48,312 nucleotides of DNA from Candidatus Giovannonibacteria bacterium (GTDB lineage: Bacteria; Patescibacteriota; Minisyncoccia; JACPKW01; UBA11713): NCBI GenBank assembly GCA_016176285.1, contig JACOXM010000009.1:1-48312 (forward strand), read 5' to 3'. The first letter of the stretch is position 1, and each line of letters begins with the position of its first letter. Shown here piece after piece: positions 38,237 to 39,304 of the stretch. The notes under the pieces were generated by a model. The model was not told where the DNA came from. It ran no database searches and worked only from the letters and a program-made list of their open reading frames with translations. Position numbers and translations under genes: made by a program.

Positions 38237-39304
38237 ATGAATAGAGATAACCAAAAAAAGGTTTTTGTGGCAATGTCAGGCGGGGTTGACAGCTCTGTCG
38301 CCGCTTTTCTATTGAAGGATCAAGAATATAACGTTACAGGCGCCCATATGGTTTGCTGGGATGGGTGCGAAAACAATGAGGACCGCCACGATGCCGAGAG
38401 GGTGGCCTTAAAACTTGGGATCCCGTTCCATGTATTTGATTTTCGCAAGGAATATAAGGAGAGAGTTTTCGATTATATGATTGGCGAATATTCAAAGGGG
38501 AGGACGCCAAACCCAGATGCTGTTTGTAACAGTGAAATTAAATTCGGAATATTTCTAAAAAAAGCTCACGAGATGGGAGCGGATTTTATCGCGACCGGGC
38601 ACTACGTGCGCAAGGAAGCTAAGCTTCCACTTGGAAGCTTAGCTTCTATGTTGTTGGAAGCGAGAGATAAATCAAAGGATCAGAGTTATTTCCTTTGCAG
38701 GCTTACTCAAGAGCAAATAAAATATTCTCTTTTTCCGATAGGCGATTATTTGAAAAGCGAAGTTCGTGAAATTGCCGCAGGCGCCGGTCTTATCACTGCC
38801 TCAAAAAAAGATTCCCAGGGGCTCTGCTTTGTGGGGAAGGTTGATTTTCAAGATTTTTTACGCGGCTATATTCCAAAGAAAGAGGGAAAGATAATTAACT
38901 CCAAGGGAGAATTATTGGGCAAGCATGACGGCTCCCATTTTTTTACTCCGGGACAGAGGCATGGCATAAAATTAGGAGGCTTTAAGGAGCCTTTATATGT
39001 TGCCGAGACGCACCACGGGGACAATACGGTTTTGGTTGCCGAAGGCAAGGAAGATCAGATTTTATATAAAAAAGAAATTTATGCTTCTGAAATAAATTGG
39101 ATTTCTGGGGAAGCTCCGGAATTTCCTTTTGAATGCGAGGCAAGGATCCGATATAGGCAGCCGCTTCAAGAAGCAAAAATCTTAATTCAAGATTCCCTAT
39201 TCTTAATTCGTTTCAAAAAGCCCCAGCGTGGTGTAGCCCCCGGGCAATTCGCGGCGTTTTATAAAGAAGGAGAACTTCTCGGCGGGGGAATTATAGAAAG
39301 CTGA
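38237..39304 (+). CDS. mnmA: tRNA-specific 2-thiouridylase
   Basis: Thiolates U34 of Lys, Glu and Gln tRNAs using ATP and persulfide sulfur. 355 residues. PP-loop SGGVDSS at 14-20; catalytic cysteine in TPNPDAVCNSEIKF and its partner in SQGLCFVG; FTPGQRHGIK and the C-terminal beta barrel follow. Between FIATGHYVR and KDQSYFLCRL the chain has an extra stretch, KEAKLPLGSLASMLLE, encoded by a perfect palindrome (38615-38646) while the frame stays open. The cysteine desulfurase at 18201 may supply its sulfur. Confidence 0.94.
   Translation: MNRDNQKKVFVAMSGGVDSSVAAFLLKDQEYNVTGAHMVCWDGCENNEDRHDAERVALKLGIPFHVFDFRKEYKERVFDYMIGEYSKGRTPNPDAVCNSEIKFGIFLKKAHEMGADFIATGHYVRKEAKLPLGSLASMLLEARDKSKDQSYFLCRLTQEQIKYSLFPIGDYLKSEVREIAAGAGLITASKKDSQGLCFVGKVDFQDFLRGYIPKKEGKIINSKGELLGKHDGSHFFTPGQRHGIKLGGFKEPLYVAETHHGDNTVLVAEGKEDQILYKKEIYASEINWISGEAPEFPFECEARIRYRQPLQEAKILIQDSLFLIRFKKPQRGVAPGQFAAFYKEGELLGGGIIES
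38615..38646. repeat. Perfect 14-bp inverted repeat inside mnmA
   Basis: Arms GAAGCTAAGCTTCC (38615-38628) and GGAAGCTTAGCTTC (38633-38646) are exact reverse complements with a four-base loop ACTT. They lie in a non-conserved loop of MnmA, keep the reading frame, and look like a small palindromic insertion element. No second full copy was found in this window. Confidence 0.9.

Follow-up and report, generated by a model that had tools for sequence, protein, structure and literature searches.

The IS200/IS605 family carries a Y1 HUH transposase, and its characterised members act on single-strand hairpins. Palindromic elements of Rickettsia, which were reportedly described by Ogata in 2000 and 2002, have to our knowledge been assigned no mobilising enzyme since their description in 2000. 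They are reported to be approximately 150 bp long and to interrupt unrelated protein genes without shifting the frame, each contributing a conserved peptide (reviewed in PMC10969869), and some of their families, RPE-4 and RPE-6, are CGTC-tagged (PMC3733652). Intragenic GTAG- and CGTC-tagged palindromic repeats include REPs inside uvr genes and tRNA synthetase genes, where linkers or loops are believed to accommodate them (Di Nocera 2013, PMC3733652). REPs and REPINs go together with RAYT (TnpA-REP) genes, as set out in excerpts of Nunvar (2010, PMC2817692), Bertels and Rainey (2011, PMC3116915) and Quentin (2018, PMC6006769); an excerpt of the last also describes in-frame internal REPs in RAYT genes of subclass 2.4. 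Patescibacteria (CPR) lie outside the treatment given in these excerpts. An earlier note on the present locus knew of no such element in CPR, and our search of open-licence papers likewise found no report for this phylum.

In this work we focused on a palindrome in the mnmA gene of a Candidatus Giovannonibacteria genome, located in a 48,312-nt stretch of DNA (the window). The palindrome, GAAGCTAAGCTTCCACTTGGAAGCTTAGCTTC, is codon-aligned within mnmA and has perfect arms of 15 bp separated by 2 nt (Table 1). The earlier note had placed an exact inverted repeat at this position correctly, but with arms of 14 bp and a 4-base loop. It had also described hairpin and reading frame as intact. The ORF scores 423.5 bits against the MnmA equivalog (NCBIfam NF001138, cut-off 284), and its product is related to solved MnmA structures (E 2e-87). 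On these matches the host gene is identified as a full-length MnmA.

Table 1. Position of the palindromic element and of its half-units in the window
Feature	Coordinates	Strand	Remarks
mnmA, tRNA 2-thiouridine(34) synthase, gene carrying the insertion	38237..39304	+	intact frame, 355 aa
Palindromic element, doubled form	38615..38646	.	encodes EAKLPLGSLAS; other genes and genomes carry the same form
Left half-unit GGAAGCTAAGCTTCC, core of single hairpin ACTTGGAAGCTNAGCTTCCAAGT	38614..38628	.	identical core adjoins Y1 genes of G006 (L174), G007 (L176) and G179 (L224)
Right half-unit ACTTGGAAGCTTAGCTTC, hairpin core inverted plus ACTTGG foot	38629..38646	.	from sequence; RAYT-flanking hairpins share the ACTTGG/CCAAGT feet

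The palindrome encodes residues 127-137 of MnmA, the preceding K being outside it. A structural model (mean pLDDT 91) predicts that the insert forms the tip of a beta-hairpin whose strands are 124-128 and 137-141. As the earlier note had expected, homologues have a variable loop there, of 15-43 residues in the relatives. Comparison of mnmA with and without the element showed differing symmetrical versions in the host genome (G000), G001, G005 and G190 (L035/L104), and none in G002, G003, G004 and G006, where the loop has 15-19 aa. The same loop carries a much longer extra segment with no clear hairpin in mnmA of G046 (L102).

The palindrome is not a chance occurrence, because 38 hairpins with arms of at least 12 bp were found in the host genome as against 0 in one Markov-generated genome replicate, and because the reversed-pattern controls were empty (0 matches in the first three whole-genome pattern searches). 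RNA of the palindrome region is predicted to fold with -29.8 kcal/mol (z -4.5), and a hairpin of such stability within the ORF might regulate translation of mnmA or stability of its mRNA. This role, the first part of which the earlier note had considered, is extremely unlikely as the main explanation, since the element lies in many unrelated genes and is absent from mnmA of close relatives, and since similar hairpins exist outside genes too.

Searches for the palindrome in the genome and its relatives showed that it recurs in unrelated genes of many genomes. With at most 3 mismatches it was present in 10 of 188 relatives (reversed control, 0). A 21-base degenerate form, compared with the genomes of approximately 85,000 species, gave 43 sites in 42 stretches, all in Patescibacteria-type MAGs, and the groups of the named matching records all belong to the Patescibacteria (Giovannoni-, Yanofsky-, Niyogi-, Kaiser-, Falkow-, Zambryski-, Uhrbacteria and others). 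Its occurrence is concentrated in the class of the window, because in an even sample of the phylum 3 of 380 genomes matched, one of them the window's own and one a chance match; the match in the distant member G534 was set aside as chance since it is not palindromic. The largest number of copies in one genome was 18, near-identical to each other, in G188 (CSMAG_1921). The degenerate pattern had no match in the viral contigs searched, and these thus give no sign of phage carriage. Uniqueness in the host genome was also rejected: the mnmA variant is present in one copy, the degenerate form adds three, and the single-unit form more.

The host genes include mnmA, tsaD, xerC-like, leuS, uvrC, cysS, valS, trmD, lepA, gatA, pyruvate kinase, ksgA-like, ileS and argS, the names other than mnmA having been read from translations. 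Fifty of the 60 distinct doubled copies lie inside ORFs of 120 aa or more, and 47 of these 50 are in phase 0; where all three phases are open, phase 0 is used in 19/19 cases. ORFs were called by length and not by annotation, and the phase counts assume independent copies, although homologous sites are among them. Most of the genomes surveyed are MAGs. Non-coding copies of the hairpin exist. In one stretch (L030, around 1628-1683) the element lies in the middle of an extended perfect palindrome (caatttctttcA...Tgaaagaaattg), which may be a terminator formed around it.

The copies read mostly in one phase and give turn-rich peptides, EAxLPxGSxAS for the doubled form and xLGSxASK or xLEAxLPS for the single unit. 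Such a phase preference, with similar peptides in many enzymes, would be expected if EAKLPLGSLAS were a functional module spread as coding sequence. The substitutions argue otherwise. Pairing percentages are partly built into the selection of the copies, and only the columns that the search pattern did not constrain count as evidence; in the three column pairs of this kind, 127 of 129 cells pair. Changes on both sides were seen in 8/15 pairs, with 79 such cells as compared to 18.7 in shuffles. DNA pairing, and not the peptide, is conserved, because one paired change replaces two residues together, for instance from EAKLP-GSLAS to EAELP-GSSAS (K to E with L to S, elsewhere both to R). The host proteins are moreover unrelated and some copies are non-coding, so that we regard a protein module as very unlikely. 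The mere relic of a protein loop that the earlier note had offered is similarly unsupported as main explanation. The outcome that the earlier note had named as refuting its observation, a unique palindrome whose loop is kept as protein without DNA symmetry, clearly did not come about: copies recur in many genes and genomes, and paired substitutions that alter amino acids maintain the DNA symmetry.

The basic unit of the family is a 23-nt hairpin, ACTTGG-N11-CCAAGT, which is often doubled; the mnmA palindrome is a doubled form of variant GAAGCTAAGCTTC. In the host genome, read in stretches covering all but 6.5 kb for the hairpin census, hairpins of type ACTTGGAAACCGAGTTTCCAAGT lie in gatA, lepA, trmD, argS and ileS. 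The same genome has a Y1 gene (C14:9383-10024, a 213-aa ORF; L151) whose product scores 32.4 bits against PF01797 (L151:9386-10024, cut-off 23) and has conserved PNHYH and YVNLN motifs. Three hairpins accompany this gene, just downstream (9348), inside and in frame (9556) and just upstream (10039), and they are of the same variant as the copies in gatA, lepA, trmD and ileS. Two or more similar hairpins were found at 51/88 Y1 loci, as compared to 1/225 host-genome windows (that of ileS) and 0/30 mnmA loci. In related Y1 proteins the hairpin-encoded peptide (e.g. HKLGSLASKSS) occurs internally, at up to two positions. A Y1 gene is present in each of the 19 distinct carriers tested, as against 11 of 20 other genomes, and hairpin distance correlates with protein distance (Mantel r 0.61, p = 0.0002, 40 loci). 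The outward flanks of the hairpins (n = 214) contain no conserved tetranucleotide. GTAG and CGTC foot tags were rejected, with GTAG in only 6 flanks, CTAC in 1, and CGTC and GACG in 0/214 each.

The variants were then compared genome by genome. Counting ACTTGG-N11-CCAAGT in 19 genomes revealed 3 to 25 copies in 17 of them; with the reversed pattern only G573 gave matches (2 per strand versus 4). Reading of the copy contexts in nine genomes yielded 46 single copies away from transposase genes, 43 of them in ORFs. Twenty-four of the 46 lie within one mismatch of a Y1 hairpin of their own genome, whereas 10,000 reassignments averaged 5.0 such copies and never gave more than 22 (p = 0.0001), and the same kind of test on doubled copies from 20 genomes gave p = 0.0007. 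A doubled copy matches its own Y1 hairpin exactly in G000, G005, G129, G179, G191 and G368, and none does in many others. The mnmA copy itself (GCTAAGC) does not match the hairpin at the only Y1 gene detected in its genome (ACCGAGT); Y1 genes with its variant are found in the three relatives listed in Table 1. Among further carriers of the doubled element, G569, G571, G573 and G574 showed no match to a Y1 hairpin, and the sole near match, in G575, is probably G129 again. No cognate transposase was found for the 18 copies of G188, in which the CPR Y1 profile detected nothing and PF01797 gave weak hits only. Carriers without a matching Y1 hairpin might have lost the transposase, or their MAGs might be incomplete.

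The mnmA palindrome is in our judgement quite likely a doubled copy of a non-autonomous REP-like element of small Y1 (HUH, IS200-like), RAYT-like transposases of Patescibacteria, and a small transposase acting on single strands has probably dispersed the hairpin family. The Y1 transposase would act on single-stranded DNA, where it would recognise the hairpin variant proper to it and copy or transfer this to new positions. As these genomes are gene-dense, most such positions would fall inside genes. Selection would then retain the copies that keep the frame, are free of stops and lie in exposed loops. These would be translated, mostly in a single phase, into a small turn-rich peptide and tolerated as a short harmless loop; in MnmA, too, the insertion would be neutral.

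Symmetry could also arise and persist purely through replication errors (template switching, quasi-palindrome correction) and gene conversion, the transposase being incidental. The near-perfect symmetry of doubled copies, even where homologous copies differ, would fit such a process, as would the tandem repeats gathered in the same loops of relatives and the copies lacking a matching Y1 gene in several genomes. Local errors, however, cannot put the same 23-34-nt sequence into distant unrelated genes, nor can they account for the match to the hairpins flanking Y1 genes, and we find this explanation unlikely. The comparisons of sequence indicate a real, dispersed REP-like family of Patescibacteria, located mainly in protein genes and with a strongly linked candidate transposase. 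They also favour the suggestion of the earlier note of an inserted and possibly mobile palindromic element, as in Rickettsia.

Compared to the REP/RAYT system as it appears in the excerpts cited above, the CPR hairpins are similar in that they are short and occur as singles and as inverted doublets, and in that a Y1 HUH gene is flanked by copies of its own hairpin, with which the protein co-varies. They differ from it by the lack of a GT(A/G)G foot and, REPs being predominantly extragenic there, by their mostly intragenic position (50/60 doubled and 43/46 single copies in ORFs). The host Y1 protein also stays below the cut-off for RAYT, with 25.9 bits against the NCBIfam REP_Tyr_transpos equivalog (cut-off 80). 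They share with the repeats of PMC3733652 the presence of palindromes inside protein genes, but those repeats are mainly intergenic and GTAG/CGTC-tagged, whereas the CPR copies are untagged and show a strong phase bias. The in-frame palindromes in unrelated protein genes also recall the Rickettsia elements, a likeness drawn from their description, although the CPR unit has 23 nt and not approximately 150 bp, has no CGTC in any of the 214 flanks and is linked to a candidate transposase. With IS200/IS605 the family shares a Y1 HUH transposase, but its hairpins are dispersed away from the transposase gene. In-frame REPs in RAYT and other genes of other bacteria are already known, like the Rickettsia elements (PMC6006769, PMC3733652, PMC10969869), and the distinctive features of the CPR family are the absence of GTAG/CGTC tags, the mostly intragenic position and the genome-specific variants at identical sites.

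These variants were seen in argS, glyS, trmD, tsaD and mnmA, where different genomes share the borders of the hairpin and differ in its symmetrical interior. The tsaD copies of G046 and G129, which belong to one genus, show three paired differences, and the G129 version equals the hairpin by its own Y1 gene. Both repeated insertion at a tolerant site and rewriting in place fit such data. In the second case, a form of the transposase explanation and not exclusive of it, the insertions would be old, vertically inherited and orthologous, with interiors that follow the resident transposase. The identical borders and the frequent match to the resident Y1 hairpin agree with this concerted evolution, but the present data fit repeated insertion equally, and other sites are filled in one genome and empty in relatives: ileS is short in G006, lepA is short in G005 and the tsaD site is empty in G068. 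We therefore consider concerted evolution possible but rather doubtful. An empty site exact at the nucleotide level, from which a target-site duplication as in MITEs could be read, was not found in the same-genus pairs for leuS (G179/G080) and tsaD (G046/G129) or in relatives of G188 for valS, where the loops were too divergent or also filled. Only tentatively can it be proposed that resident Y1 transposases keep rewriting hairpins inside essential genes, so that the orthologous sites of each lineage carry the variant of its own transposase; if true, concerted evolution would act on coding sequence and change protein loops by pairs of residues.

Streamlined CPR genomes bear repeat families that alter loops of essential enzymes, and the altered loops bear on annotation, alignments and structural work for these proteins. 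A route of selfish DNA into working proteins becomes testable here, since the in-frame palindromes share genomes with, and often match, hairpins that flank a transposase gene.

Other repeats were observed in similar positions. Unrelated in-frame palindromes, e.g. ATGCGACGTCCGTACGGACGTCGCAT or GGCTCTAAG...CTTAGAGCC, are located in the mnmA loops of G040 (L085) and G007 (L081) and in valS of G557 (L304), pointing to several such element families. The host genome contains two more in-frame coding palindromes of other sequence, at C13:38297-38333 (TTTACCCCCACACCAAAATTTTTGGTGTGGGGGTAAA) and C2:19385-19418 (TCGAAAATAAAGCCGACTTCGGCTTTATTTTCGA). In-frame short direct repeats, e.g. AAATCCGAAATCCG and ACACAACACACAAC, are present in the mnmA loops of relatives among other Patescibacteria (L080, L088, L096 and L101).
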